This document shows positions 5,119 to 38,192 of a DNA stretch of 38,192 nucleotides, one piece after another. Each line of letters begins with the position of its first letter. The first letter of the stretch is position 1. A model generated the notes under the pieces. That model was not told the origin of the DNA and made no database searches. It saw only the letters and a program-made list of their open reading frames with translations. The position numbers and the translations under genes are program-made. Source of the DNA: an uncultured Methanomassiliicoccus sp. (lineage in GTDB: Archaea > Thermoplasmatota > Thermoplasmata > Methanomassiliicoccales > Methanomassiliicoccaceae); the NCBI GenBank assembly GCA_944319735.1, contig CALUEU010000008.1, positions 1-38,192 on the forward strand, written 5' to 3'.

Positions 5119-5904
5119 TTAGTTTTCTTCTGCTGGGGTTTCTTCTGCAGATTCTTCAGCAATCTCTTCGGATTCAGCCTCTTCAGAAACAGCTTCTTCA
5201 GCTGGTGCTTCCTCAGATACTTCCTCTTCGGGTTCTGATTCTTCAGGTTCAGCGACAGCAGTTTCCTGCCCGATTCTTTCCTGAATACTTAATTCATTCT
5301 CATCAGGAGTTCCGGCTTTGATGACTTCGGACTTTCTGATTTCAATCCTCTTGATTGGAATGATTACTTTAACTGCATTGGAAAGATCCCTTGAAAGATC
5401 TCCAGAGATGATTGATTTTACGAGATCAGAGATAGACATGTCTGCAGCCATGGTGGTGAGTGTCTCTGTAAGGATGTTTCTTACAGCGGTCTCCTGAGCT
5501 GCCTGAATACGCTGTTCTGTGATGCTCATGGGTTTGATACGAACAACGAAGTTGTCCTTTGTGCGAACATCAACTACATGATCGGTCTTTGTTCTCTTTC
5601 TTCTTGTTAACCTGCGAACGTAATCGCTGGTGAGTTCGTGTCCGATGAATGCAGTGTGTGCTTCAAATCCGTTTACATCAGATACATTGAAGCGCATTTT
5701 GATGTGCATTTTAGAGAAATCACCGGTTAGTTCGTGTACTGTAACTTCAATATTTCTTCCAATAAGCGAGGCTGGGTCAGCGCTAGGTGTCTCTCCGAGT
5801 TCAACCTGATTAAACATACGGGGAGCATAGAGTTTGTACCACTCTTTTGCCTTCCACTTGTCCTTCACCTTACGCGCTGCGGCCTTGCCTTTTTTAACTG
5901 CCAT
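5119..5904 (-). CDS. rps3ae: 30S ribosomal protein eS1 (S3Ae)
   Basis: 261 residues. The basic N-terminus (MAVKKGKAAARKVKDKWK) and the following WYKLYAPRMFNQVELGET, the central DYVRRLTRRKRTK and the VKVIIPIKRIEIRKSEV strand identify archaeal/eukaryotic eS1, a small-subunit protein near the mRNA exit. Archaeal members are usually about 200-225 residues. Here residues from about 214 onward form an unusual, highly acidic tail of Glu, Ala, Ser and Pro. The ATG at 5904 is preceded on the minus strand by GGAGGC. A TATA-like TTTAAATT at about 5940-5947 gives a short leader; a second, TTTAAATATA at about 6000-6009, would give a leader of about 70 nt. tRNA-Met follows directly and probably shares the transcript. 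Confidence 0.95.
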   Translation of the reverse strand: MAVKKGKAAARKVKDKWKAKEWYKLYAPRMFNQVELGETPSADPASLIGRNIEVTVHELTGDFSKMHIKMRFNVSDVNGFEAHTAFIGHELTSDYVRRLTRRKRTKTDHVVDVRTKDNFVVRIKPMSITEQRIQAAQETAVRNILTETLTTMAADMSISDLVKSIISGDLSRDLSNAVKVIIPIKRIEIRKSEVIKAGTPDENELSIQERIGQETAVAEPEESEPEEEVSEEAPAEEAVSEEAESEEIAEESAEETPAEEN

Positions 5905-6108
5905 TGTTTTGCCTCCACATTGGCGGCAGACCCCGCAGCAATTTAAAGGAACTACTGCACTTCTGCCAGATTAAATGAGATAAATTAGGCATGTACCGCT
6001 TATATTTAAAAATTACGCTAGCTGCCCCATAGAATTTTAAAGAGCATGATACAGAACAATAGAAAAAAGTTAAGGGGAAGGGGTTTGGTTTCAAGAATCT
6101 GAACTCGC

Positions 6109-7512
6109 TTAGAGCTCGTAGTTCTTGGGGTTGAATGCAGGAACATCCTTGTACTCTTTGAGAGCCCAGTCGACGAATTTGCCTTCCTCGTCTGGCAGAG
6201 AGTTGAGATCGGTAATGATCTTGTTTAAGGTGTCTTTTTCCTGCTTGTTGAGTTTCAGTTTTCCCTTGTTGTTGGAGTCCCTGATTAACTCAGCAGCTTT
6301 GAGACCGGCAGCTTTTGCCCTTAGGTAGTAGCTGTCGCCTGCTTCGATGATTGCCTGTCCGATCTTGTAGGCGTTGTCGTATGCAAGGATATATGGTTCT
6401 GCTCCTCTGAACCTGTCGGAAGCGACGTAAATGTCCCTGAGGACTTTGTCCTGCTTCATCTGTTTTGCAGCGTTCATTAATGCAGCTTCGTATCCAATTA
6501 CACCGAGCCAACACTGAACTGATGATCCACCGAATTCTGGGTGGTATTCAACGGACTCGTTTGACCACATGTCGCAGGTAGCGGCGATTAAGTTACCCAT
6601 CAGATCAGCGTGGGCATCCTGAGCGCCTTTTCCTTCCTGGCAGATTGGGTTACCGGAGATTGCTTTGAGTATAGGTCCTTCGTAACCGCAGTCTTTGTCA
6701 GGTCCAGTTGCACCGCATTCGAAAGCGACTAAGGATCTTGCAGAAGCGATTGCACGGGTAACTGCAGAGAATGTCTTTGGAACATCTTTGTCTAAGTATC
6801 CGCCGGCCATGAACATGGCTGTGTTTGCACCAGCGCAGTTTGTGTCTCCACCGGCAATTACGTTCTTTCTCTTTGCAAGGTCAACGATCTGGGTCCAGAG
6901 CCATTCCATATCAATGGATCCAAGGTAACCGATACCGAAGAGCCATCCTCTGATATCCTGACGGACAACAGCGAAGTCTGAGATTTCTTTTCCACCGACA
7001 GATTCAATGGAGATTACATCAGCTCCGGCTTCAGCAGCCACTTCGAATGATTCCATCATCTTTTCTGGGTAGTTGTGGGTCTTGTCCTGTCCGTACCTCA
7101 TTCCATTTTCGTGGAGACGGGAGTCAGCGCAGGTGTGTCTTACAGCGCAAGCAATTCCGTACTGGTCGTGGAATTTCTCAATGACTGCTTTCTGACCGGC
7201 AACGACAGGTTTTGCGAATTTCTCAGGCTCGTTGCTCATCTGGAAGATCCATTCGTTTTCCAGCTGAACGGCTGGGAAACCGAGTGTAACTGCTCTGTTC
7301 ATAATGTCTGTTGCGATGTAGTCGACGTACTCTTTTGTAAGAGACTCGGGACTCTTCTCGCTTCCTGGTCTAGGAGCGAAGTTAATTTCAGGGATAACTA
7401 AGCCCTGTCCTACTTTAATTCCTAATCCGTATGAAATTGGCTTCTTTGCTTCTCCGAAGACCATTTCGTCTGCAGAGGCATATGCCATCTTTGTGTATTT
7501 TGTAGTAGCCAT
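6109..7512 (-). CDS. mtaB: Methanol:corrinoid methyltransferase MtaB
   Basis: 467 residues, the normal size. MtaB is the zinc enzyme that moves the methyl group of methanol to the cob(I)amide bound by MtaC, the first step of methanogenesis from methanol. The known zinc ligands of the Methanosarcina barkeri enzyme (E164, C220, C269) are matched here with identical spacing by E170 (in ISIESVGGKE), C226 (in GGDTNCAGANTAMF) and C275 (in PDKDCGYEGP). The gene lies 15 bases after mtaC with GAGGTGA before the ATG, so the two form an operon. A T-rich stretch on the minus strand at about 6058-6067 may terminate transcription. mtaA, which passes the methyl group to coenzyme M, is not in the window. Confidence 0.97.
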   Translation of the reverse strand: MATTKYTKMAYASADEMVFGEAKKPISYGLGIKVGQGLVIPEINFAPRPGSEKSPESLTKEYVDYIATDIMNRAVTLGFPAVQLENEWIFQMSNEPEKFAKPVVAGQKAVIEKFHDQYGIACAVRHTCADSRLHENGMRYGQDKTHNYPEKMMESFEVAAEAGADVISIESVGGKEISDFAVVRQDIRGWLFGIGYLGSIDMEWLWTQIVDLAKRKNVIAGGDTNCAGANTAMFMAGGYLDKDVPKTFSAVTRAIASARSLVAFECGATGPDKDCGYEGPILKAISGNPICQEGKGAQDAHADLMGNLIAATCDMWSNESVEYHPEFGGSSVQCWLGVIGYEAALMNAAKQMKQDKVLRDIYVASDRFRGAEPYILAYDNAYKIGQAIIEAGDSYYLRAKAAGLKAAELIRDSNNKGKLKLNKQEKDTLNKIITDLNSLPDEEGKFVDWALKEYKDVPAFNPKNYEL

Positions 7513-7527
7513 CTTAAATCACCTCAT

Positions 7528-8316
7528 TCATGCCTTTCCGTTAATTATATCGTCCCAGTTGGATCTGATCTTCTTCCAGTCCCATCCCTCAATTGCCTTG
7601 TTTGCAAGACCTGGGCCTTCTGCAGCTTTTGCACTGTAGATACCCATATCGTAGGATTCTACGTACTCTCTGTTAACTGCACCACCGGCGCATATGAATG
7701 GAAGTTCTACTCCGACTTCTTTGAGTCTGCTGGAAATCCTGGAGAATGCAGACATGGTGGTTGTCATGAGTGCAGTTCCGGTAAGTACGTCTGGTTTCTG
7801 TTTCTGTACTTCATCAACGACGGTGTCAACGAGGATATCTTTTCCAAGATCTACTACATTAAATCCATTTGATTTTAGAAGAACTGCTGCGATATTCTTT
7901 CCGATATCGTGAGGATCTCCCTCAGCTGCGTGCATCATTACTACGCCTTTGTACTTTCTCTCTCCGCTCAAAGCTGCTTCTGCAACTTTTGTTCCACGGG
8001 TCATTGCATCAGATGCAACCATCACGTGTGGCAGGTAGTAGATACCGCGTCCGTATAATTCAGCTACAATGTCCATTCCGGCAAGGAGACCTTTCTCGAT
8101 GATCTCTTCTGCGCTTAAGGTCTCGAGAGCCTCACTAACATGCTTTTCAATGTCCTTTGACTTAAGGTTCATGACATCTTGTGCGATCTGCCTTAAGAAT
8201 TGATTCTCAGGTAGATACTGCTTTGCGATGTCTTCCGGCTTCTCACTTGATTCGACAACGATATCGTATCTAATCAAGATTTTATCCGCATTTACTGCAT
8301 CAAAATCTAAACTCAT
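7528..8316 (-). CDS. mtaC: Methanol-specific corrinoid protein MtaC
   Basis: 262 residues. MtaC carries the corrinoid that accepts the methyl group from methanol (by MtaB) and donates it to coenzyme M (by MtaA). An N-terminal helical cap domain (to about residue 110) is followed by the B12-binding Rossmann domain with D134-P-H136-D-I-G139-K-N. His136 is the lower axial cobalt ligand and has the same number as in M. barkeri MtaC. Later glycines (TGTALMTTTMS, CAGGAVN) bind the nucleotide tail. The ATG at 8316 follows AAGGAGTGAGTAA. The leader is about 85-90 nt long and holds a hairpin beside the ribosome binding site, which suggests control after transcription starts. Confidence 0.97.
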   Translation of the reverse strand: MSLDFDAVNADKILIRYDIVVESSEKPEDIAKQYLPENQFLRQIAQDVMNLKSKDIEKHVSEALETLSAEEIIEKGLLAGMDIVAELYGRGIYYLPHVMVASDAMTRGTKVAEAALSGERKYKGVVMMHAAEGDPHDIGKNIAAVLLKSNGFNVVDLGKDILVDTVVDEVQKQKPDVLTGTALMTTTMSAFSRISSRLKEVGVELPFICAGGAVNREYVESYDMGIYSAKAAEGPGLANKAIEGWDWKKIRSNWDDIINGKA

Positions 8317-8331
8317 TTACTCACTCCTTGA

Positions 8332-8366
8332 TGCGAGTTTATCAAATTTCCCTGCTTAAACTCGCA
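8332..8366 (-). promoter_or_regulatory. Hairpin in the mtaC-mtaB leader beside the ribosome binding site
   Basis: A perfect 10-bp inverted repeat, TGCGAGTTTA (8332-8341) and TAAACTCGCA (8357-8366), has a 15-base loop. On the mtaC transcript the stem ends 15 bases before the ATG, immediately upstream of AAGGAGTG. There is no T run after it, so it is unlikely to be a simple terminator. It could control ribosome access or transcript stability. Confidence 0.55.
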
Positions 8367-8424
8367 CATAATTAACAGTGATAACAATGCGTCCAATATA
8401 CTTTACGGTACGTTTTTTAGAAAA

Positions 8425-8436
8425 ATATTTAAACAC
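8425..8436 (-). promoter_or_regulatory. TATA box of mtaC-mtaB
   Basis: The minus strand reads GTTTAAATATTT here, the best TATA element upstream of mtaC. Initiation about 25 bp further would leave a leader of roughly 85-90 nt. Long leaders are described for mta operons of Methanosarcina. The rest of 8437-8599 is very AT-rich with no gene visible. Confidence 0.5.
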
Positions 8437-25905: not shown

Positions 25906-26373
25906 ATTGGTAAATGGTTTAAAACTGCCAGACTACTGGCAGTGTTTTGATTTTTATTTTAGAGTTTAAGCTGCTACTTTCTGAGTCTGAAGATTGAAGT
26001 AGAGTGTGACTGCTGGGTTATCTTTATTATTGTAACCGTTTGCTTCTTTTGACTCCACGTTCTGAGTTATTGCATTAGGTCCGATAATTATCTGGTCTGC
26101 TGACGTTTCATACTTGACAATACCGCCGAATGATCCTTGAATGTTAAGTGTTGAGTTACCTTTGAGAAGTATGTATGCTGCAGGACGATCAGGATATTCT
26201 GTGTTTCCTACATTGTCTACATCTTTGAATACATCATAGAAAACGACTTTCTTATTTTCAGGAACAGTCAAAGTTGCATCTTCAAATACTGTCAGAGTTG
26301 CTCCTGTTAAAAATTTGAAGTTATTGTTGAAAGTATAGTTTCCATTGTGAAGCTCGAAAGAAATGTCTCCATC
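25792..26373. repeat. 582-bp perfect direct repeat, copy A
   Basis: By eye identical to 27444-28025 with a constant offset of 1,652 bp. It covers most of the 117-bp element, the terminator and the last 136 codons of the 467-residue gene. Beyond 26374 the two genes differ at many sites, mostly synonymous or conservative. Confidence 0.85.
25924..25943 (-). terminator. Terminator of the 467-residue protein gene
   Basis: Stem ACTGCCAG/CTGGCAGT with a four-base loop; on the minus strand TTTTAAA follows. It begins 23 bases after the stop codon. A T run on the other side makes it possibly bidirectional, which would suit the convergent HTH gene. Confidence 0.6.
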
Positions 26374-27369
26374 GATCGGATAAGTGAACTTGCTTGAGGT
26401 CATAGGCTTCGTGATACCGCCGAATGAGAATGTAAGTGTGCTTTTTTCTGCACTTGCTCCTCCATAGATCGCTATGTTTACTCTGTCTGTTGCGGCATCG
26501 TATGTTTTGACTAAGTACGCATTGTCATTCAGGTGGATTAATCCGTTGTTGTTGTCAATCTGAGGATATCTAGTGTAATTGAAGGTACTTCCTCCGTACA
26601 TTTTCACGTTGCCCAATAATGAAGCTCCTGAGTTGATTGTTATTTTAGATTCTATGTTGTGGCAGTTGTATTCATTCAGAGGGAAGGGATCTCCATATTT
26701 GTTGAGAAGTACGTTTATTCTTCCTCCGATTAAGTTGAGACCATGAGTGCCTCCTCTCCAGCTTTCAATTACAAATAAGTCTCTTATCTCTGCTCCTGAC
26801 TCTGCAATTACTTCTCCATTTCCTTTGATGTAACCGCAGTTATCTAAGATGCCTCCGCTCTTGACAATGATGTTGCCTGAGAGATTAATCTGTGCATATC
26901 CCCCTCTGATATCTTGATCATAATCTCCCCCTCCAGGATATCCTGTTACAGCGTTGATTAGGACTTTTCCTTCAATTGTCAGAGTAGCGTTTTTGTCGAT
27001 TGTGAGTGTTCTATATTGAGACTTAACGCTTGTAGTAGTTCCATCAGGGTTGTATCCTGTTGATGTGTATCCAACATCGTTGTCCATGCACGGCAGCAGC
27101 AGAAATACTCCTGCTTTTACAGTTGCATTTGAAGTCATTGTGTAATCGCTGATTAACACAACTGTCTGACCGCTTACGGCTGTGTTCAATGCTTCTTCCA
27201 ACGTATTGTATGTTGTATCGCCTATGCTTGCTACAGGTGTAGCATTTCCTGCAGATAATGTCACATTACCGTCAGAATCAGAATCATTCAGTGTTCCGAC
27301 TGCAATGAAACAAAATGCTGCAAGCAGTACTGCTCCTACTGCAAGCATCAATTTATGTTTATTTTGCAT
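25966..27369 (-). CDS. Secreted beta-solenoid-like protein, paralog of the giant protein's C-terminal module
   Basis: 467 residues. The ATG at 27369 follows GGAGGAATGAATAA. Residues 7-27 form a signal peptide (LMLAVGAVLLAAFCFIAVG), and the mature part begins with an acidic linker. From about residue 48 on it is one module: TYNTLEEALNTAVSGQTVVL, then short turns rich in Gly, Asn and Thr (RTLTI-TLTIEG, GYAQINLSGNIIVKSGG, SGASLLGNVKMYGG), the pattern of a right-handed beta-helix. It closely matches the C-terminal module of the adjacent giant protein, and its last 136 codons are identical at DNA level. There is no C-terminal membrane anchor or sorting motif. Probably a surface or secreted adhesin-like protein; the ligand is unknown. 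Confidence 0.8.
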   Translation of the reverse strand: MQNKHKLMLAVGAVLLAAFCFIAVGTLNDSDSDGNVTLSAGNATPVASIGDTTYNTLEEALNTAVSGQTVVLISDYTMTSNATVKAGVFLLLPCMDNDVGYTSTGYNPDGTTTSVKSQYRTLTIDKNATLTIEGKVLINAVTGYPGGGDYDQDIRGGYAQINLSGNIIVKSGGILDNCGYIKGNGEVIAESGAEIRDLFVIESWRGGTHGLNLIGGRINVLLNKYGDPFPLNEYNCHNIESKITINSGASLLGNVKMYGGSTFNYTRYPQIDNNNGLIHLNDNAYLVKTYDAATDRVNIAIYGGASAEKSTLTFSFGGITKPMTSSKFTYPIDGDISFELHNGNYTFNNNFKFLTGATLTVFEDATLTVPENKKVVFYDVFKDVDNVGNTEYPDRPAAYILLKGNSTLNIQGSFGGIVKYETSADQIIIGPNAITQNVESKEANGYNNKDNPAVTLYFNLQTQKVAA

Positions 27370-27557: not shown

Positions 27558-28025
27558 ATTGGTAAATGGTTTAAAACTGCCAGACTACTGGCAGTGTTTT
27601 GATTTTTATTTTAGAGTTTAAGCTGCTACTTTCTGAGTCTGAAGATTGAAGTAGAGTGTGACTGCTGGGTTATCTTTATTATTGTAACCGTTTGCTTCTT
27701 TTGACTCCACGTTCTGAGTTATTGCATTAGGTCCGATAATTATCTGGTCTGCTGACGTTTCATACTTGACAATACCGCCGAATGATCCTTGAATGTTAAG
27801 TGTTGAGTTACCTTTGAGAAGTATGTATGCTGCAGGACGATCAGGATATTCTGTGTTTCCTACATTGTCTACATCTTTGAATACATCATAGAAAACGACT
27901 TTCTTATTTTCAGGAACAGTCAAAGTTGCATCTTCAAATACTGTCAGAGTTGCTCCTGTTAAAAATTTGAAGTTATTGTTGAAAGTATAGTTTCCATTGT
28001 GAAGCTCGAAAGAAATGTCTCCATC
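27444..28025. repeat. 582-bp perfect direct repeat, copy B
   Basis: Partner of 25792-26373. It covers most of the structured element, the terminator and the last 136 codons of the giant gene. Confidence 0.85.
27576..27595 (-). terminator. Terminator of the giant gene
   Basis: Identical to the hairpin at 25924-25943, part of the duplicated block; it begins 23 bases after the stop codon. Confidence 0.6.
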
Positions 28026-31000
28026 AATCGGATATGTAAATTTGCTAGTCATCATATCTTTGGTGATACCCATCGAGAATGTGAGTGTACTGCTTTCTGC
28101 ACTTGCTCCTCCGTAGATTGCTATGTTTACTCTTTCTGTTGCAGCATCATATGTTTTGACTAAGTATGCATTATCATTCAGGTGGATTAACCCATTATTG
28201 TTATCGATCTGAGGGTACCTTGTATAATTATAACTGTCATTGCCATACATTTTCACGTTGCCTAATAATGAAGCTCCTGAGTGAATTATTATTTTAGATT
28301 CTATGTTGTGGCAGTTGTATTCATTCAGAGGGAAAGGATCTCCGTAATTATTAGAAAGTACTTTAGAAAGGCCCCCAATCAGATTAAGTGCGTGAGAGCC
28401 TCCTCTCCAGCTTTCAATTACAAATAAGTCTCTTATCTCTGCTCCTGATTCTGCAATTATTTCTCCGCTTCCTTTGATGTAACCGCAGTTATCCAAGATA
28501 CCTCCGCTCTTAACAATGATATTTCCTGAAAGATTGATCTGTGCATATCCTCCTCTGATATCTTGATCATAATCTCCGCCAGCTGGATAACCTGTAACGG
28601 CATTGACTAAAACACTTCCTTCAATTGTCAGAGTAATATTCTGCGGAATTGTTAAGGTTCTGTATTGATCCACGCTTGTTGTGGTTCCATCAGGATTGTA
28701 TCCCGTTGAAGTATACCCAACATCGTTATCCATGCAAGGAAGCAGCAGAAATACACCAGATTTTACAGTTGCATCTGAAGTCATCTCATAATCTTTTAAG
28801 AGTGTAAGCTTGTCTCCGGATTTAGCATCAGCTAAAGCAGCTTCAAGAGATGTATAGAAATTCTTACCGATCTGTGCTACATACTGCGTTTCAACTTCTG
28901 CGAAAACAGCAGTTATGTTGAGATTGTTTATCAATGAAAATGAATATGTTGAGTTGGTAGATAGCACATTATTGTTTTCATCAACCCAGCAATAAAACTT
29001 GTATCCAGCATTTGGAATGGCTGATAGTTTTATTGATGAAGCAGACGGGAGCATATTTTCAGAGCCTACTGCTAATTCTTGATCTCCAGAAGTTGCAGAG
29101 ATATTTCCATATTCGCTATTGTTAGAATCAACTTTCAAATGCATAGCAAGAGAGAAACTTAGATTCTTAATCCAAAGACCGTCTTCTTCAGCGCTATCAT
29201 CTGCTAGTTTTGCATAGGCAAAATAGACCGTTACTGATTCACCTTCAGCTGCATCAATAGCTACAGATGCTTTGGACCATAAGTCAGTAACTGCAAATGT
29301 TCCTGCGAGGTATTCAGTAGAACCTAACAAATAAAATCCATATATCCCATAATATGAGATTTGTGAAAAATTATAGCACAATGCATCCTGTGAGATGTTT
29401 GCAGAAGCTTTATTTGATTTAAGTATGTAATCAAATGACAAAACTCCGGGGCCAGTGAGTGTTACAGAAAATTCTGGAAGTGTTGTTGTACCATCATATT
29501 GATCAGGTGCTCCCGAATACAAAGAATGATAAGTACCATTCTGCTCATCATGTAACCAGGGTTTGTCACCAACATTTTCAAATACAGTTACACTGCCGTC
29601 TGATGAAAGCACGTTGTTCCATTTGGCATATAATGTAAGATTATTAGCAGGCATAGTTGTTGGTGCCTGAACTGACAATGCTGAATCAGAATACCAGCCG
29701 TCAAACTGATAACCGAATTTCTCAGAAGATGGTAATGAAAGTGCATCTCCTTGCTTCAGACTTTGGTAAGTTGTATCATCAACCGCACTTCCGCCGTTGG
29801 TTTCAAATGAGATTGAATATGTTTGAGCAGTTATCTGCACTGTTACAATACTGCTGGTTGACGTTGAAGAAGTAGTTCCAAGAGTGTTGGTTACTACACA
29901 GAAGTAATAGTACACTCCTTCAGGTTTGTTAGAAGGAATCGTGTAGGTAGCAGAATTTGCTACCTTTTTGGTTTCCTCCACTGTTGTATCAGATGGCCCA
30001 GTTGCAGCATACCAAGCGTATGATAAGATTCCGCCATCTGTGACTGAAGCAGAAACAGTGAGAGATTTTGAATCTCCAGCAATAATATCCACTGGAGAAT
30101 TGGGAGATTCTATTATTGGTGCCTCTGCTTCTAAAGATGTTTTGAGGGAGATTGTGACGTCTCCGTTGGGCATGATGAAGGTATTCCCATTTAATGTTAC
30201 ACTACCAGATGTTGACGTTACTTCAATATCATCTATGGTGTAACCCGAATTCGGATCAATATTTATGACTATCACTTCACCAGCAGACAGGTAATGATAT
30301 TCGTTTTGATAGTCTGCATTTATTGATGGTATGCCAGTTAAGAGTGAGTTGTTTGCAGTTACATAAACATACCATCTTGTCAATGGATCAAAATTATTAT
30401 TGAACCATGATGGTGTAAATGAGTCATCAGCATACATTAATTCATCGTTCAAGGATTCATTAGGGCCATGTCCAAGATACTTGAAGGTTGTGCCAGTCTG
30501 GGCTTCATCTACAATTAGTGAATGTTGCCCATATAAGGCAGCATCATAATGATTGAAGGAAAAGTGATAGATGTCTGTGTAACGTATACCGGTCACATCT
30601 GATGAGCAGTAGTATCGCCCATATCCATCATATCCCGTTCCATTGGACATAAATGCTTCAGATATTTTTCCATTTATGCCAGTGATTGGGATGTTCAGAT
30701 TTTTCAATAATCCCATTGCATCCCTATATAGGTTGTATTGATCATTTATTGCCCTCTCAATTCCAATTTTTACATTGGTAGTTGTAAATGATTTATCGAC
30801 TGAATAACAGCCATAAATCGCATCTGGGTGACCAACCATAGCAAATGGAACTGAAAAGTTAGCCATCAAGCCATTGAAAAATGATTCATCATCATTTTTA
30901 GAGACTACTTTAAGATACTTTTCATCATTTTCCACACCAACATATGCTGAAAGGATCGCAGAACTGGCATCATCACGAGCAAGTCTACATAACTGCTCTA

Positions 31001-34000
31001 TTTGTAAGAAATAAGTAAGTTTTGCTTCTTCGATTGCATCTGCATCCTGTTTGAATACAATTGTACATCCTGCTAAGTTTACAGTGTAGTCTGCAAGATT
31101 GTCAGCCCATAGGATATCATCATTGGGCAGATATGCAAGGAATGAAGTTATTCCTGTTCTACCAGAATTTGGATTCACAGGCACTTCCTGACTTGTTGCA
31201 GCATATATCTTCTGAATCAGATTTGAAACGTCTGCATTCGGGTTTATGATTGAAACTGTCAGTGTTGTTCCTTCAAGTATTAGCTTGTAATCATTCGATG
31301 TGTCTTGATTGACCAGCTCTTGTAATGCATTTTCTAAACTGGATACCAACTGCAATGACAAGTTTAGATTATCAGTAACGTTTGATATAGTAAATTCAAA
31401 CGTTAAATTATCATTTGTTGTTCCAGAGATTGTTTTATCACCAAATGCAATTACAGGACTATTGTTCCCGATTGAACTTTCAAAGGTAATCGTGAACTTG
31501 AAGTCCTTTCCATGTTCTACAGATGAAATGTTGTAACCGTCTACTACTGACGCATTATATGCAACTCCAACATTATTTGTTGGAAGAGTGATTGAATAAT
31601 GATTGATGCTCCAGACAGCATAGAGAGTTACTGTTGCTCCTTCTGTGGAAGTAAGATTGCTTACTGATTCGCTGTCAGCATATTTTACAGATTCACCAAG
31701 TGTATCAGACCATCCTGCAAATGTGTAACCTGTTTTTACAAATTCATTTGCTTTGAGATATTGTGCTTCACCATATGTGAAAGTTTGATTACTCATCTCT
31801 CCACTTGTTGATCCGTTGCCATTGAATTGTACGTTGTAAGTGATAGGAGTCCAATTGGCTGTGTATGTTCTAGCTCCAATGGAACCATTTTGGATCTGAA
31901 GATTTGTTGTAGTCTCAGATATGTCTGTACCGCTCCATCCTGCAAATGTGTAACCAGTCTTAGTCGGATTGTTAATTGTTATTGTTTCAGATTCAATTGT
32001 ATATTTGTCAGGATTTCCTGAAACGGTTCCTCCATTCAATTCATAAGTGATTTTATATTCAATCGGAGTCCATTTTGCGTAGAGAGTGATGTTTCCTGTT
32101 GTTGTTCCTTTTTCATAGCTAAATAGTGTTGTGCAGTCCGTGTCAGTAAACCAGCTTCCGAAATCATATCCTGATTTTGACACATTATTTGGAAGAATTA
32201 TTGATTCTGTATCAACATCATATGGGACTGGAGTCTGTGCAGGGCTGCCTCCTTTTGTATCAAATGAGATTGTATACTGTGTTTTTACAAACTTAGCGTA
32301 TATTGTGATGTCACCTGTTGTTCCATTAGATATTGAAGTTATCTGATTTGAGAAGTCTGAGTTTCTAAACCATCCCTTAAATTCATACCCGGATTTGGTA
32401 GGATTGGTGAAAGTTATTTCAGAGTCTATTGTATATGTAGCAGGATTTTCAGAGCTGTTTGCTCCCCCATCTAACACATATGTAATTGTGTACTCTGTTA
32501 ATTCCCAGACTGCATAAAGAGTCATGTTTCCTTCAACATTCCAATTGAAAGTTGCACTTAAGGAATAATTATCACCATTGCCGTCTGCCTGAGTGTTCCA
32601 TTTGATAAGATGGTATCCATTTCTGCTGAAGTCAGATCCATCACTCAAAGTTATCTCAGAACCGTATGTTGTGTTTTGACTGCTGATCGAACCTGATCCG
32701 CCGTTGTTGTCATATTGTATTGTGTATAAAATTGGATCCCAGACAGCATAGAGAGTTACTGTTGCTCCTTCTGTGGAAGTAAGATTGCTTACTGATTCGC
32801 TGTCAGCATATTTTACAGATTCACCAAGTGTATCAGACCATCCTGCAAATGTGTAACCTGTTTTTACAAATTCATTTGCTTTGAGATATTGTGCTTCACC
32901 ATATGTGAAAGTTTGATCAGTCATTGATCCACTTGTTGATCCGTTACCATCGAATTGTACTTTGTAAGTGATAGGATTCCAGTCTGCTTTGAGTGTAATA
33001 TTGCCAGTTACAGTAGTATTGAAATCATAACTGCTGCCTTCAAGTGTCCAGTCTTCAAATGTATAACCTTCTTTCGTCGGGTCTGTTGGCTTTGTAACTG
33101 TATTTCCGTGTGTTATTGTTTTTGTTGTTGATGGTGATTCGTTACTATATTCAAATGTAACTGAATATGTGTTCTTCTTGACACCTTCGACTGTAATGTT
33201 GATATCTGAAGTTACACTTTCAATCGTGAATTGATTGTTTGTTAATGTAACGACTGAACCATTCTGTTTGATTGTGTATTCTGATTGAGAATATGCTTCA
33301 TCAAGTGTAAATGTTAATGTTACACTATCTCCATACGCTACTGTGTTGGATGAAGAAGTTAATGTATATCCTTCTCCTGGTTGAATTGTCACATTATATG
33401 AGTTCTTTTCAATTCCTTCAACTGAAATAGTCTGATTTTCTGTTATGTTCTCAATCACATATTTTTCATCAGATTTTGTTAATGCAACTCCATTTGAGTT
33501 TACAATTATCTTGTTTATATCATACATTTCATCAACAGTGATTGTAAATTCGAAATCACTTCCGTAATTTACAGTGGTGCTTCCAACATAGGATATTTTG
33601 TAATCACTAGATGTAGGAACAGTAATGCTGAATGTGATTATTTCCCAGCTAGCATAAAGTGTGATGTTTCCTGTTGATCCTATTGCAATTTCAGTTACTT
33701 TGTTTCCTGAAAAGTCTGAGGTTGTATACCATCCCAAGAATTTGTATCCAAGTCTTGTGGGATCTTTGAGAGTTATTGTGTCTGTTTCACAGTTGTATTT
33801 GTCAGGATTGGATTGATCGTTATCTCCACCGTTTAAGACGTATGAAATTTCATAATCAATTGGAGTTTCTGCATAGACTGCTTTGTAAGTTGCATCTTCA
33901 GTTACACTTGTAATCTCTTTGTCCCAGCCTGAAAAAGTATAACTGTATCTATCGCCAGACGGTCTTTCAGGATCAGTCGGGATTGTGACAACATCGCCAT

Positions 34001-37000
34001 AATGATACTGTTTTGAACTGATCTCTGAATTATCCCAATTTACAAATGATACTGTGTATTCAACAGCTTCCCATTTTGCATAGAGTGTGATGTTTCCTGT
34101 TGATCCTATTGCAATTTCAGTTATTTGATTTTCGAAACTTTCGTCTGTGAACCATCCCTTGAATGTATATCCAAGTCTTGCAGGATCTTTGAGAGTTATT
34201 GTTTCAGTATCAATTGTGTATGAAATGGGATTGTCAGAGCTATTTGTTCCTTCATCTAATTCATAAGTTATGCTGTATGAAACTGCTTCCCATTTTGCAT
34301 ATAACGTCACATTGTTGATTACTTTGTCTTCATTGAAGTTCCACGGAGTTGAATAGCTGGAATCTCTATACCATCCTGTTAGGGTGTAACCTAGTCTATT
34401 CATACCAAGGTCATTTTCATTTAATACTGAATTATAATCAGCAGTTATTGTCTTGTTTGGTATGTCATCAGACACGTAATTCAATGTAACTGTGTATGTG
34501 TTGATAGTCCAGTTTGCATATAATGTTAGATCTTCAGCTTTTCCTGAAGTTTCAGTTATCTTATTATTGAATTCTGCATCTGTATACCATCCTACAAAGG
34601 TATGTCCAGTCTTTGAAGGAGCTAAGAATACCTTTGGAGTTTCTACATCATATTGCGATGGATTATTTTCATGATTTGATCCGCCGTTTAATTCATATGT
34701 AATTGAATAAGTTTCCAAGGTCCATCCTGCATACAATGTAAATGAATTTACCACAGGCGTGTTGAAATCATATTTCTGTGTGCAGTTTGAATCTATAAAC
34801 CATCCTGCAAATATATATCCAGTCCTTGACGGATTTTGTGGTTCTTTAATCTGCCCTTCATACAGCACTTTTTCTTCCTTTACATCGCTTCCTCCTTTGG
34901 AGTCGAATGTAACAGAGAACTCAGCACGATCATATTTGGCATACAAAGTGAAGTTGCTGTTGACTAAGGCATTTAGATCATATACCTGAGTAAACTCAGA
35001 ATCAGAATACCATCCTTTAAACTCATATCCTGTTTTTTCAGGAGCGTCTACAAGTGAAAGTTTCTGTCCATTTTCCACATAGATGTGTTCTATTTGCGAG
35101 TCTCCATAATCAAGAGATACTCTATTCTGAATTTTTGTTGCGAATGTATACAATACAGTCTTGGTAGATGCCCCTGAAGCATTTGCTTCTTTAGATTTAT
35201 ATATCAAAGTTTTCGAGTTGTGCGTATCAATAGATGCATTTCCAGTATCACCAGAAATATTAATTATTCCTCCAAAGCTCCCTTCAATTGTAAGTGACGT
35301 GCTGTCCATCATTATTAGATCTGCAGAGGGCCTGTTAGGATACTTTGTACTATCCGTGGGTGTACTACCTATAGTACACAAATCATCAAATTGGTCATAG
35401 AATACGGTTGCACCTGATTGAGATATTGTTAAATTTACACCTTCATGCAGAATTAATTCAGACCCTGTTAAGAATTTAAAGTGATTTTCAATTGTGTAAT
35501 CTCCACCATATAACTCAAAGGAGATATCTCCATCAACAGGGAAGATAAAATTTCCACTTGACAGATATCTGTCTACAATGTACAGCGAACTTTTGCTTGC
35601 TGTTGCCCCTCCATAAATTTCAATAGTTACTCTTCCCTTGTCTGATGAGGAAGAACCATTTAATGCATCAGGATTGAATGTTTTTACCAGATATGCGCCT
35701 TCGGCGAGTCTGATCAAACCATTTGTATTATTTACTTGGGGGAAACGAGTATAGTGATATCCAGAGATTTCCCCTTCAAACATCTTTACATTTCCAAGCA
35801 AAGATGCTCCTGAATAAATGACTAATTTGGATTGAATATTGTGGCAGTTATATTCATTGAAGGGAAACACACCATTATTATACATGGTGAGTGCCTGAGT
35901 TCCGCCCCTCCAGTGTTGTACAATATACATATCTCTGATTTCTGCACCTGATTCTGCTGTTATCTTTCCGTCTCCTGTAATGTAACCGCAGACTTCGAGA
36001 ATTCCTTCATTTTTGACAGAAATGTCTCCGTTGAGAATGATCTGTGCATATCCGCCTGTGATGTCCATGACGTGATAACCGCCGGCTGCACGGCCGGTTA
36101 CTGCATTAACAAGCAGTTGTCCTTGCAGATCAACTGTTATTCCTTCAGGAATGGTCAGAGTGCGATAGAGTACGCTGTGAGAATTACTGTCACTCATAGT
36201 TCCATTGGGATTGTGCTGCTGCTCATAATCTGCAGTCAGATCATATCCTGTGTCTTCATCAGAACACGGCAGAACTAAGAATACTCCTTTCTTCACAGTA
36301 ATGTTCTGCTTCAGAGTGTAATCATTCAGGAGAATTACTTTATCTCCGCTCACAGCAGCATTCAGCGCGTCTTCCAAGTTTTTGTAATTATTTCCATTCA
36401 GATTTGCTGCGTATGAATCAGAGTATGTTACTGTCACGGTTGTATCGTTCAGTATTGTTCCCGAAACTGCTGTCTTGTCTGGAAGCATGCCAGAGATTTC
36501 TGGAGATTCTACAGAATATTCAGAACCGTATGCCAGTGTTTCTATATGTTGAAGATAAGCTTGTGAATTGTCTTCATAAACATAGCTTATTGTCAGTGTG
36601 TATGAGTTCACAGTCCACTTTGCATACAGAGTGATGTCATCAGCAGGCATTGTTGAGAACTGATATTCGGTTTGCAATGATTCGTCCGAACACCAGTATG
36701 CAAATGTATAGCCATCCCTCATTGGATCGTTGGGTTTTGATACGCTTGTACTATAATCCTGAGTTATCACTGGTACGCTAGAACCGCCGTTGCTTTCAAA
36801 CGTTATGGTGTATTGATTCACTGAAAATTTAGAATAGAGATCGATGTCTCCTGCAGTTACTCCTTTAGAGTATACAAATTCAGTTTCTGCATCTAGTTCA
36901 TACCATCCCAGGAAATCATGTCCTGTTTTTGATACGGCAGGCAGTGAAATCGAGTCTTTTGTTATATCATAACCTACGGTTGAAGTTTCTTCTCCGTTGT

Positions 37001-38192
37001 GCAATGTTATCGTATATGTTTCCAAATTCCACTTTGCATAGAGATTGATATTGGAAGCCGGCATTCTGTTTGATTCGAAGTCCCACTTGTTTTGTAAAGA
37101 GGGGTCTGTATACCATCCATCAAGACTGTAACCTGTTTTAGAGACTGCAGGTGCAGTTATCAGACTATTGAATTCAAAGGTCTGAGTTATTTCATTATTT
37201 CCATTATTAGGATGGAATGATACATTGTATGAGTTCACAGTCCACTTTGCATACAGAGTGATGTTATCAGCAGGCATTGTTGAGAACTGATATTCATGCT
37301 GAAGACTTTCATCTGAATACCAGCCTGCAAATGCATACCCGGTTCTTTCAGGTTCCTGCGGAGCAGAAGTTGCATCACTATAATGATAAGTTTGTGTTGT
37401 GATTACAGACTTATCATAGTTCTGATACGTTATAGTATACTCTATGAATTCAGAAATATACTGTGCTTTATAAGTTGCATCAGCAGTTACTGAAGTTATC
37501 TCCGGAGACCATGAAGAGAATGTGTATCTATATGTTTCATCAGATTGTCTCACTGGTTTCTGAGGCGGAATTACAGTATCGCCATAGTGATAAGTTTCAG
37601 ACTGAATTTCATTCTCATCCCAGTCAATAAATGTTATTTTATATTCAATTAATTTAAATTCTGCTGAAATTGTTACATCATCGGCAGGCATTATAAATTT
37701 GCCATTTTCAATTGTAACATATTGTCCGTTTGAATCCCGTACGATCAGACTACTTAATTCATATCCCGTATTTGGTGAAATCGTAATGCTGATTTCAGAC
37801 TTAGGAGCAGCTGATGTTTCAGTCACTGATACTGAACCGTTTTCAGTGTCGTTTACAGTAATGTTGTATGCATTTCTAAGCCATACTGCATTCATGATTA
37901 CATCAATTGAAGATATTGTAAATTTATCACCTGGCTGATAGATTGTTCCATTATATTCCCAGCCGCCAAATGTGTATCCTTCTTTAGTAAGGATATATGA
38001 GCCGGGAGTAGGGTAGTTTGGACCAAAGAGAATTACTGTTGTTTCATTAGTATATCCTATTTTATAAGGAAGATATCCAATGCCTCCGTTTGCATTATAT
38101 TCTAAGTAGTAAACCTTAGTGAATTTTGAATGCAGGGTTACATCATGATCTGGCATCGTAGTGAATAAGTAAGGAGTTTTTTCATCAGATTC
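27618..38192 (-). CDS. Giant adhesin-like surface protein with InlB-type repeats and beta-solenoid modules (5' end outside window)
   Basis: More than 3,520 codons; the frame stays open to the right edge, so the signal peptide lies outside. The ATG at 38156 is inside a repeat and is not the start. Residue numbers here count from that ATG. 1-575: eight repeats, mostly InlB/Listeria-Bacteroides type (GYTFAGWY-x-LYAKW), with one MucBP-like. 580-1015: first beta-solenoid module. 1015-2185: about sixteen more repeats. 2185-2674: a divergent repeat running into a unique region (contains YGRYYCSSDVTGIRYTDIY). 2674-2775: Ig-like domain. 2775-3090: one repeat, a jelly-roll-like domain and a divergent repeat. 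3092-3512: second module, nearly identical to the 467-residue neighbour. No C-terminal anchor is visible. Such proteins are thought to bind host or microbial partners. Confidence 0.88.
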   Translation of the reverse strand, partial: ESDEKTPYLFTTMPDHDVTLHSKFTKVYYLEYNANGGIGYLPYKIGYTNETTVILFGPNYPTPGSYILTKEGYTFGGWEYNGTIYQPGDKFTISSIDVIMNAVWLRNAYNITVNDTENGSVSVTETSAAPKSEISITISPNTGYELSSLIVRDSNGQYVTIENGKFIMPADDVTISAEFKLIEYKITFIDWDENEIQSETYHYGDTVIPPQKPVRQSDETYRYTFSSWSPEITSVTADATYKAQYISEFIEYTITYQNYDKSVITTQTYHYSDATSAPQEPERTGYAFAGWYSDESLQHEYQFSTMPADNITLYAKWTVNSYNVSFHPNNGNNEITQTFEFNSLITAPAVSKTGYSLDGWYTDPSLQNKWDFESNRMPASNINLYAKWNLETYTITLHNGEETSTVGYDITKDSISLPAVSKTGHDFLGWYELDAETEFVYSKGVTAGDIDLYSKFSVNQYTITFESNGGSSVPVITQDYSTSVSKPNDPMRDGYTFAYWCSDESLQTEYQFSTMPADDITLYAKWTVNSYTLTISYVYEDNSQAYLQHIETLAYGSEYSVESPEISGMLPDKTAVSGTILNDTTVTVTYSDSYAANLNGNNYKNLEDALNAAVSGDKVILLNDYTLKQNITVKKGVFLVLPCSDEDTGYDLTADYEQQHNPNGTMSDSNSHSVLYRTLTIPEGITVDLQGQLLVNAVTGRAAGGYHVMDITGGYAQIILNGDISVKNEGILEVCGYITGDGKITAESGAEIRDMYIVQHWRGGTQALTMYNNGVFPFNEYNCHNIQSKLVIYSGASLLGNVKMFEGEISGYHYTRFPQVNNTNGLIRLAEGAYLVKTFNPDALNGSSSSDKGRVTIEIYGGATASKSSLYIVDRYLSSGNFIFPVDGDISFELYGGDYTIENHFKFLTGSELILHEGVNLTISQSGATVFYDQFDDLCTIGSTPTDSTKYPNRPSADLIMMDSTSLTIEGSFGGIINISGDTGNASIDTHNSKTLIYKSKEANASGASTKTVLYTFATKIQNRVSLDYGDSQIEHIYVENGQKLSLVDAPEKTGYEFKGWYSDSEFTQVYDLNALVNSNFTLYAKYDRAEFSVTFDSKGGSDVKEEKVLYEGQIKEPQNPSRTGYIFAGWFIDSNCTQKYDFNTPVVNSFTLYAGWTLETYSITYELNGGSNHENNPSQYDVETPKVFLAPSKTGHTFVGWYTDAEFNNKITETSGKAEDLTLYANWTINTYTVTLNYVSDDIPNKTITADYNSVLNENDLGMNRLGYTLTGWYRDSSYSTPWNFNEDKVINNVTLYAKWEAVSYSITYELDEGTNSSDNPISYTIDTETITLKDPARLGYTFKGWFTDESFENQITEIAIGSTGNITLYAKWEAVEYTVSFVNWDNSEISSKQYHYGDVVTIPTDPERPSGDRYSYTFSGWDKEITSVTEDATYKAVYAETPIDYEISYVLNGGDNDQSNPDKYNCETDTITLKDPTRLGYKFLGWYTTSDFSGNKVTEIAIGSTGNITLYASWEIITFSITVPTSSDYKISYVGSTTVNYGSDFEFTITVDEMYDINKIIVNSNGVALTKSDEKYVIENITENQTISVEGIEKNSYNVTIQPGEGYTLTSSSNTVAYGDSVTLTFTLDEAYSQSEYTIKQNGSVVTLTNNQFTIESVTSDINITVEGVKKNTYSVTFEYSNESPSTTKTITHGNTVTKPTDPTKEGYTFEDWTLEGSSYDFNTTVTGNITLKADWNPITYKVQFDGNGSTSGSMTDQTFTYGEAQYLKANEFVKTGYTFAGWSDTLGESVKYADSESVSNLTSTEGATVTLYAVWDPILYTIQYDNNGGSGSISSQNTTYGSEITLSDGSDFSRNGYHLIKWNTQADGNGDNYSLSATFNWNVEGNMTLYAVWELTEYTITYVLDGGANSSENPATYTIDSEITFTNPTKSGYEFKGWFRNSDFSNQITSISNGTTGDITIYAKFVKTQYTISFDTKGGSPAQTPVPYDVDTESIILPNNVSKSGYDFGSWFTDTDCTTLFSYEKGTTTGNITLYAKWTPIEYKITYELNGGTVSGNPDKYTIESETITINNPTKTGYTFAGWSGTDISETTTNLQIQNGSIGARTYTANWTPITYNVQFNGNGSTSGEMSNQTFTYGEAQYLKANEFVKTGYTFAGWSDTLGESVKYADSESVSNLTSTEGATVTLYAVWSINHYSITLPTNNVGVAYNASVVDGYNISSVEHGKDFKFTITFESSIGNNSPVIAFGDKTISGTTNDNLTFEFTISNVTDNLNLSLQLVSSLENALQELVNQDTSNDYKLILEGTTLTVSIINPNADVSNLIQKIYAATSQEVPVNPNSGRTGITSFLAYLPNDDILWADNLADYTVNLAGCTIVFKQDADAIEEAKLTYFLQIEQLCRLARDDASSAILSAYVGVENDEKYLKVVSKNDDESFFNGLMANFSVPFAMVGHPDAIYGCYSVDKSFTTTNVKIGIERAINDQYNLYRDAMGLLKNLNIPITGINGKISEAFMSNGTGYDGYGRYYCSSDVTGIRYTDIYHFSFNHYDAALYGQHSLIVDEAQTGTTFKYLGHGPNESLNDELMYADDSFTPSWFNNNFDPLTRWYVYVTANNSLLTGIPSINADYQNEYHYLSAGEVIVINIDPNSGYTIDDIEVTSTSGSVTLNGNTFIMPNGDVTISLKTSLEAEAPIIESPNSPVDIIAGDSKSLTVSASVTDGGILSYAWYAATGPSDTTVEETKKVANSATYTIPSNKPEGVYYYFCVVTNTLGTTSSTSTSSIVTVQITAQTYSISFETNGGSAVDDTTYQSLKQGDALSLPSSEKFGYQFDGWYSDSALSVQAPTTMPANNLTLYAKWNNVLSSDGSVTVFENVGDKPWLHDEQNGTYHSLYSGAPDQYDGTTTLPEFSVTLTGPGVLSFDYILKSNKASANISQDALCYNFSQISYYGIYGFYLLGSTEYLAGTFAVTDLWSKASVAIDAAEGESVTVYFAYAKLADDSAEEDGLWIKNLSFSLAMHLKVDSNNSEYGNISATSGDQELAVGSENMLPSASSIKLSAIPNAGYKFYCWVDENNNVLSTNSTYSFSLINNLNITAVFAEVETQYVAQIGKNFYTSLEAALADAKSGDKLTLLKDYEMTSDATVKSGVFLLLPCMDNDVGYTSTGYNPDGTTTSVDQYRTLTIPQNITLTIEGSVLVNAVTGYPAGGDYDQDIRGGYAQINLSGNIIVKSGGILDNCGYIKGSGEIIAESGAEIRDLFVIESWRGGSHALNLIGGLSKVLSNNYGDPFPLNEYNCHNIESKIIIHSGASLLGNVKMYGNDSYNYTRYPQIDNNNGLIHLNDNAYLVKTYDAATERVNIAIYGGASAESSTLTFSMGITKDMMTSKFTYPIDGDISFELHNGNYTFNNNFKFLTGATLTVFEDATLTVPENKKVVFYDVFKDVDNVGNTEYPDRPAAYILLKGNSTLNIQGSFGGIVKYETSADQIIIGPNAITQNVESKEANGYNNKDNPAVTLYFNLQTQKVAA
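31611..31789. repeat. 179-bp perfect repeat inside the giant gene, copy A
   Basis: Identical by eye to 32739-32917 (offset 1,128 bp, exactly 376 codons). It encodes most of one InlB-type repeat (QYLKANEFVKTGYTFAGW and the following part). Confidence 0.85.
32739..32917. repeat. 179-bp perfect repeat inside the giant gene, copy B
   Basis: Partner of 31611-31789. The offset is a multiple of three, so recombination between the copies would remove or add five repeats without breaking the frame. Confidence 0.85.
36599..36668. repeat. 70-bp near-perfect repeat inside the giant gene, copy A
   Basis: Matches 37226-37295 with one mismatch by eye (offset 627 bp, 209 codons). It encodes the end of one InlB-type repeat and the start of the next (YQFSTMPAD-x-TLYAKWTVNSY). 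Confidence 0.8.
37226..37295. repeat. 70-bp near-perfect repeat inside the giant gene, copy B
   Basis: Partner of 36599-36668; again the offset keeps the reading frame. Confidence 0.8.

Follow-up and report, generated by a model that had tools for sequence, protein, structure and literature searches.

A predicted RNA stem-loop in mtaC leaders, kept across the Methanomassiliicoccales while its sequence changes

Introduction

Some bacterial mRNAs, such as ompA, carry stabilising stem-loops at their 5' ends. Hydrogen-dependent methyl-reducing methanogens are abundant in animal guts, and to our knowledge little is known about how they set the expression of their methanol enzymes. In another methanogen, long 5' untranslated regions (UTRs) of mtaA and mtaC contribute to transcript stability at low temperature (excerpts of PMC5378194). 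MtaCB isozymes of Methanosarcina acetivorans are under post-transcriptional control, by factors that excerpts of the report describe as unknown (PMC3942078). Titles and abstracts of open-licence papers yielded no recognised mta leader structure from Methanomassiliicoccales.

Here we describe a predicted stem-loop in the leader of an mtaC gene of this order. Its resemblance to ompA is a stem-loop beside the ribosome binding site, predicted to be 5'-terminal in many relatives; unlike ompA, its setting is one of archaeal promoters and archaeal nucleases, and its stabilising function is putative. It concerns the same gene as the long UTRs of methylotrophic methanogens and likewise suggests a post-transcriptional 5' UTR effect. 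It differs from those UTRs, as excerpts of PMC5378194 present them, in that leaders in the present set have predicted lengths of mostly about 50 nt, contain a compact hairpin and belong to another order. The operon is of the same type as the MtaCB operons in the excerpted PMC3942078. The mtaC stem-loop would extend the 5' UTR effects on mta operons known from these two sources, so far as the excerpts cover them, to a new order and in a new form.

Results

The window mtaC leader

The stretch analysed, hereafter the window, is one entire contig of 38,192 nt from a 1.77-Mb genome (contig G000:C8). Ahead of mtaC, an inverted repeat, TGCGAGTTTA / TAAACTCGCA, forms a perfect 10-bp stem with its arms 15 nt apart, and the Shine-Dalgarno (SD) sequence AAGGAGTG follows almost at once (Table 1); the stem adjoins the SD and does not include it. 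This is the stem, loop and position that an earlier note on this DNA had claimed. Only three perfect inverted repeats of at least 10 bp, with arms at most 40 nt apart and no overlap between them, occur in the window, and this is one of them. The leader has a folding z score of -2.5 over 131 nt and of -3.3 over a 56-nt stretch.

Table 1. Positions of the mtaC leader features and neighbouring genes in the window
Feature	Position	Strand	Details	Basis
TATA box TTTAAATA	8426..8433	-	predicted transcription start ~8403, leader ~87 nt	TATA scan
UCACU	8377..8381	-	predicted to pair with AGUGA (8321-8325), overlapping the SD, in the long-leader fold	inference from a single genome
mtaC leader hairpin	8332..8366	-	in mRNA order: 5' arm 8366-8357, 15-nt loop 8356-8342, 3' arm 8341-8332	sequence and folds
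SD AAGGAGTG of mtaC	8322..8329	-	2 nt beyond the stem	sequence
mtaC start codon ATG	8314..8316	-		
mtaC, methanol corrinoid protein, 262 aa	7528..8316	-	B12-binding domains; best NCBIfam match MtaC, below the model cut-off	
mtaB, methanol:corrinoid methyltransferase	6109..7512	-	next gene 3' of mtaC; match above cut-off	

On its own genome alone, the case for this hairpin is moderate, since it ranks just 7th by energy of the best single hairpin in a set of 125 leaders that includes mtaC and requires 90 nt or more of free sequence upstream. That rank is what a chance origin has in its favour. The same 125 leaders contain no other perfect stem of at least 9 bp, and the pattern is repeated in relatives, which together leave chance a very improbable account.

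The stem does not read as a familiar element. It is followed by UCAAGGAGUGAGUAA, with no U run, and an intrinsic terminator or attenuator was dropped on that ground. The leaders gave no gathering-level match in Rfam (the top hit, IMES-4, scored 18.7 bits where the cut-off is 48, with E 0.68), and a riboswitch or other known RNA family was likewise set aside, as no curated family matched.

Elsewhere in the window, the product of a 467-aa open reading frame (25966-27369) matches no NCBIfam or Pfam model; this frame adjoins another of 3512 aa (27618-38156).

Conservation in relatives

For comparison, mtaC genes were drawn from 147 Methanomassiliicoccales genomes, 62 of which had a match at 1e-80, and from named genomes (79 loci). 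Collapsing identical leaders and dropping those with less than 100 nt upstream reduced 116 mtaC matches to 93 distinct leaders. These were set against 286 control leaders, two of which belong to mtaC genes of the window's own genome.

That genome encodes two further MtaC copies, L002 (87% identical protein) and L003 (60%). The window copy, L001, forms a young pair with L002 in the tree and has the longer branch. Their leaders have no visible sequence likeness, and both carry strong stems, of 10 bp in L001 and 13 bp (two G-U) in L002. The third copy, L003 (G000:C3:181273-182043), sits on a long branch and has ACG at the expected start, with no ATG, GTG or TTG; it is a degenerate copy, a gene with an unusual start or a sequence error.

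Structure recurs in mtaC leaders throughout the order. At positions -75 to -8 the 93 leaders have a mean folding z of -1.47, with 39% below -2, against a mean of -0.40 and 9% below -2 at -150 to -83 of the same leaders. The best single hairpin has a median energy of -12.3 kcal/mol in mtaC leaders and -8.2 kcal/mol in the 286 controls (p = 4.6e-10).

Two asymmetries bear on which molecule carries this structure. Counting the internal mismatches of the best inverted repeats, with G-U scored as a mismatch, mtaC stems contain 23 G-U, 3 A-C and 32 others (91 of 93 leaders; G-U to A-C 17:3 in the non-redundant set). Control stems contain 20, 18 and 78 (218 of 286 leaders), and stems in the upstream region 6, 6 and 46 (86 leaders). 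The mRNA strand also folds better than the antisense strand by 2.27 kcal/mol (p = 4e-5; p = 0.003 in 82 non-redundant leaders), the difference in controls being -0.03. The excess of G-U over A-C and the energy gain of the sense strand point to an RNA hairpin, not a DNA palindrome. The perfect symmetry of the window repeat and its closeness to the promoter would suit an operator bound by a transcription regulator, but both asymmetries in relatives argue against one, as do loops free to vary in length and sequence. With 23 G-U against 3 A-C mismatches the operator reading was dropped, and we give it hardly any credence.

In many relatives the hairpin is kept in quite different sequence, which suggests that the fold itself matters: the sequences of the leaders differ almost completely, and loop lengths and sequences vary freely. 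The earlier note had named covariation in related leaders as a check, and the answer was divided. In a six-leader f5 group that includes Ca. Methanomicula labiotermitis, 5 of 11 pairs have changed on both sides, and 98.5% of cells are paired against 18-46% when the alignment is slid. In a four-leader group of family f1, 93.8% are paired and covariation is not significant. Two mixed f5 groups (6 and 19 leaders) gave no RNAalifold consensus, a clear hairpin is absent in L003 and in one group of f5 leaders, and the leaders of L115, L119 and L120 rank as ordinary in structure within their own genomes.

Taken across the order, the sequence comparisons give good support to the view that selection has maintained an RNA stem-loop in the leaders of mtaC. 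The structural element that the earlier note had suspected in this lineage thus reappears, conserved as structure, among the 93 leaders. MtaC matches in other genomes are at most 69% identical in protein to the window copy, and genus g1 is represented by one genome in the set compared. The window stem likely belongs to the conserved pattern.

Position of the hairpin in the leader

Every TATA result given here depends on a consensus set by hand, which was adopted because a model learned from control leaders came out diffuse. TTTAAATA is the only strong box upstream of mtaC (score 10.4; runner-up 5.1). The earlier note had placed the box at 8425-8436 and put the leader at about 85-90 nt, in agreement with the scan. 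It had also held many window genes to be leaderless, which the scan, a weak guide to leaderless versus leadered genes, does not bear out: a strong TATA lies at leaderless distance in 1 of 14 window leaders and at leadered distance in 4 of 14.

The predicted start lies about 37 nt upstream of the stem, so by prediction the window hairpin is internal to the leader. A weaker box, TATATT (8396-8401), would make it nearly 5'-terminal; since this box falls outside the top eight, it is not claimed as a promoter.

Relatives differ on this point. A hairpin of at least -8 kcal/mol in strength is present in 67 non-redundant leaders. A strong TATA accompanies it in 47, and in 21 of the 67 the box lies 23-31 nt upstream of the hairpin core, against 7.9 +/- 2.3 when stem positions are permuted (p = 0.0005). 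A TATA-to-start spacing of about 26 nt is supported by the leaders of mcrB: 38 of them have a box 15-45 nt upstream of a conserved GCAAGGGG-type motif, and in every one of these the TATA centre precedes the motif by 26-28 nt. This agrees with the roughly 23 bp between TATA box and start in Methanosarcina (excerpts of PMC11409679). The two spacings together suggest that the stem starts at about the first mRNA base in many relatives. In the own-genome paralogue L002, the 13-bp stem begins at the predicted mRNA 5' end, and predicted mtaC leaders in the order are mostly about 50 nt long (median 51). In leaders with a good TATA, then, the start of the hairpin and the predicted start of the mRNA tend to coincide. 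By this model of the promoter the window leader appears atypical, with its promoter further upstream and its hairpin inside the leader.

Accessibility of the ribosome binding site

The earlier note had set the hairpin against the ribosome binding site. The comparison does not support this as something that relatives share: in 85 mtaC leaders the SD is predicted to be unpaired with probability 0.361, and shuffling the upstream sequence gives 0.383 (p = 0.18). The 74 non-redundant leaders give 0.345 against 0.383 (p = 0.04), and controls shift the same way (0.328 against 0.376, p = 0.009). Since mtaC leaders lie close to their shuffles and controls behave alike, conservation in mtaC does not extend to masking of the SD. 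An SD-masking switch as the conserved feature was dropped, the SD being paired no more than expected in the 85 leaders.

Single leaders keep translational control in play. On that reading, the hairpin places leader segments so that the SD and AUG can close, and a protein, an RNA or temperature opens them. The window transcript from 8403 is predicted to fold UCACU onto the SD and CAUU onto AAUG of the start region, a pairing that disappears from the predicted folds of leaders of 62 nt or less. In the window the SD is unpaired at 0.30 against 0.49 in shuffles, a difference that is not significant, as 18% of shuffles are as low. The SD is also strongly paired in L090, L014, L037 and L080. Methanosarcina MT1 isoforms offer a parallel: excerpts of PMC3942078 state that they too come under post-transcriptional regulation, besides other control, by factors described there as unknown. 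Against these stand the accessibility figures for the 85 leaders and the lack of any conserved loop sequence across the mtaC leader groups. We regard translational control as possible but rather unlikely.

Expression of M. luminyensis paralogues

The one expression data set identified, for M. luminyensis paralogues, bears on the hairpin. The six qPCR primers that PMC5688252 used for mtaC1-3 all match genome G015 exactly, which identifies G015 as M. luminyensis and L118, L116 and L088 as mtaC1, mtaC2 and mtaC3. According to excerpts of that paper, which reports mRNA levels only, mtaC2 is constitutive at 15-fold above the S15 reference, and mtaC1 and mtaC3 lie 10- to 50-fold below it. The mtaC2 leader has no hairpin (z +0.69); hairpins are present in mtaC1 (z -2.62) and mtaC3 (z -1.10).

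A hairpin missing from the abundant copy and present on the weak ones argues against a requirement for it in high expression and would be compatible with damping. Three genes prove nothing on this point. Hairpins on low-expressed copies would also suit translational control, but the figures are mRNA levels, not translation. With paralogues that have and lack the hairpin, and whose mRNA levels are known, M. luminyensis makes the question testable.

Proposed role

What the comparisons give is a structure of the mRNA strand, conserved as structure, tending to the predicted 5' end and without conserved masking of the SD. Its persistence across the order while its sequence turns over suggests selection on post-transcriptional control or mRNA lifetime. 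We tentatively propose, as a reading that may well prove wrong, that the 5' UTR of mtaCB mRNA in Methanomassiliicoccales carries a stem-loop kept for its pairing rather than its sequence, which acts as a leader structure against 5'-end-dependent decay, keeps the SD usable, or both. The hairpin may shield the 5' part of the mRNA from such decay. It may also, or instead, fold the short leader away and leave the adjoining SD usable. The window copy is a young duplicate whose predicted promoter lies further upstream. Its hairpin would be internal, and the additional leader might, to judge from this one sequence, cover part of the SD and AUG.

Between these options and a translational switch, we lean slightly towards mRNA decay or leader accessibility. 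The earlier note had seen in the hairpin's position a means to control ribosome loading or mRNA decay; for decay, the predicted 5'-terminal position in relatives fits and the hairpins on weakly expressed M. luminyensis copies do not. We count in favour of the proposed role a second beta-CASP nuclease gene in the window's own genome, and the contribution of long mtaA and mtaC 5' UTRs to transcript stability given in excerpts of PMC5378194. The hairpin is a small target for mutation.

Other structured leaders

Leader structure is partly special to mtaC. Where a promoter-like TATA is present, mtaC leaders (53 of 82) have a mean z of -1.92 and controls (28 of 286) one of -0.78 (p = 0.002). Significant leader structure (p <= 0.05) occurs in 8 of the 28 TATA-bearing controls, one being the paralogue L002; with the two own mtaC genes excluded it occurs in 7 of 26. 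These include S3ae, in the window, and the corrinoid-protein gene L146, whose layout is the same as that of mtaC. A general habit of the lineage would account for such controls, and for structured mcrB leaders as well: leadered genes would tend to carry a hairpin after the transcription start and ahead of the SD, and the one in mtaC would have no role of its own. Against such a habit stands the stronger structure of mtaC relative to TATA-bearing controls and to other free-standing corrinoid genes, and we consider it unlikely.

Those corrinoid genes have a mean z of -0.96 (n = 15, 4 below -2), after 18 operon-like genes had been set aside and L249, one of 30, dropped as partial. The pattern is weaker in them than in mtaC, and the case for extending it to other corrinoid genes is weak. 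As an observation in its own right, the leader of the ribosomal protein gene S3ae (5119-5904, minus strand) folds at -25.9 kcal/mol over 5902-5982 (z -2.6), just past the predicted start.

The leaders of mcrB (L156-L185 and L216-L234; L164 in the own genome) are structured too. Their starts were obtained for 48 of 50 loci; mtmB leaders were excluded, as many starts looked wrong. GCAAGGGG stands at the predicted first mRNA base of mcr leaders, exactly in 34 of 48 and in a loose form in 44 of 48, and is followed by a hairpin and then the SD. Rfam gave no match in the 20 mcr loci scanned, and the element is possibly a new leader RNA family. A longer form of the motif has its only exact match in the own genome at mcr. 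GCAAGGGG occurs in 0 of 93 mtaC leaders, and a motif common to both genes was dropped for that reason.

A joint reading of the two genes is conceivable, though we hold it doubtful. In it, core methanogenesis mRNAs of Methanomassiliicoccales would have a common leader layout, in which the position of the promoter (TATA centre plus about 26) brings the mRNA start to a hairpin or its immediate neighbourhood, with the SD directly after. The mtaC leader would be a sequence-free version and the mcrB leader one with a near-invariant 5' tag, GCAAGGGG. Together they would make up a new class of elements at archaeal mRNA 5' ends, governing how long the mRNAs of the main catabolic operons last or how they are loaded. 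In Methanosarcina, expression changed little when the stem of an upstream hairpin in an mcrB leader was altered, by the excerpted account in PMC11409679, which counsels caution about hairpin function.

Family f1 also has a second class of mtaC leader, with two hairpins (n = 7: L012, L097, L098, L020, L025, L118 and L120). Hairpin 2 reads CCCTAT-(A/T)GGAGG-ATAGGG, with the SD-like GGAGG in its loop, and another SD lies before the ATG. The GGAGG-loop segment occurs once each in 6 of 15 genomes of the family, and in 5 of those 6 it lies just upstream of an mtaC match.
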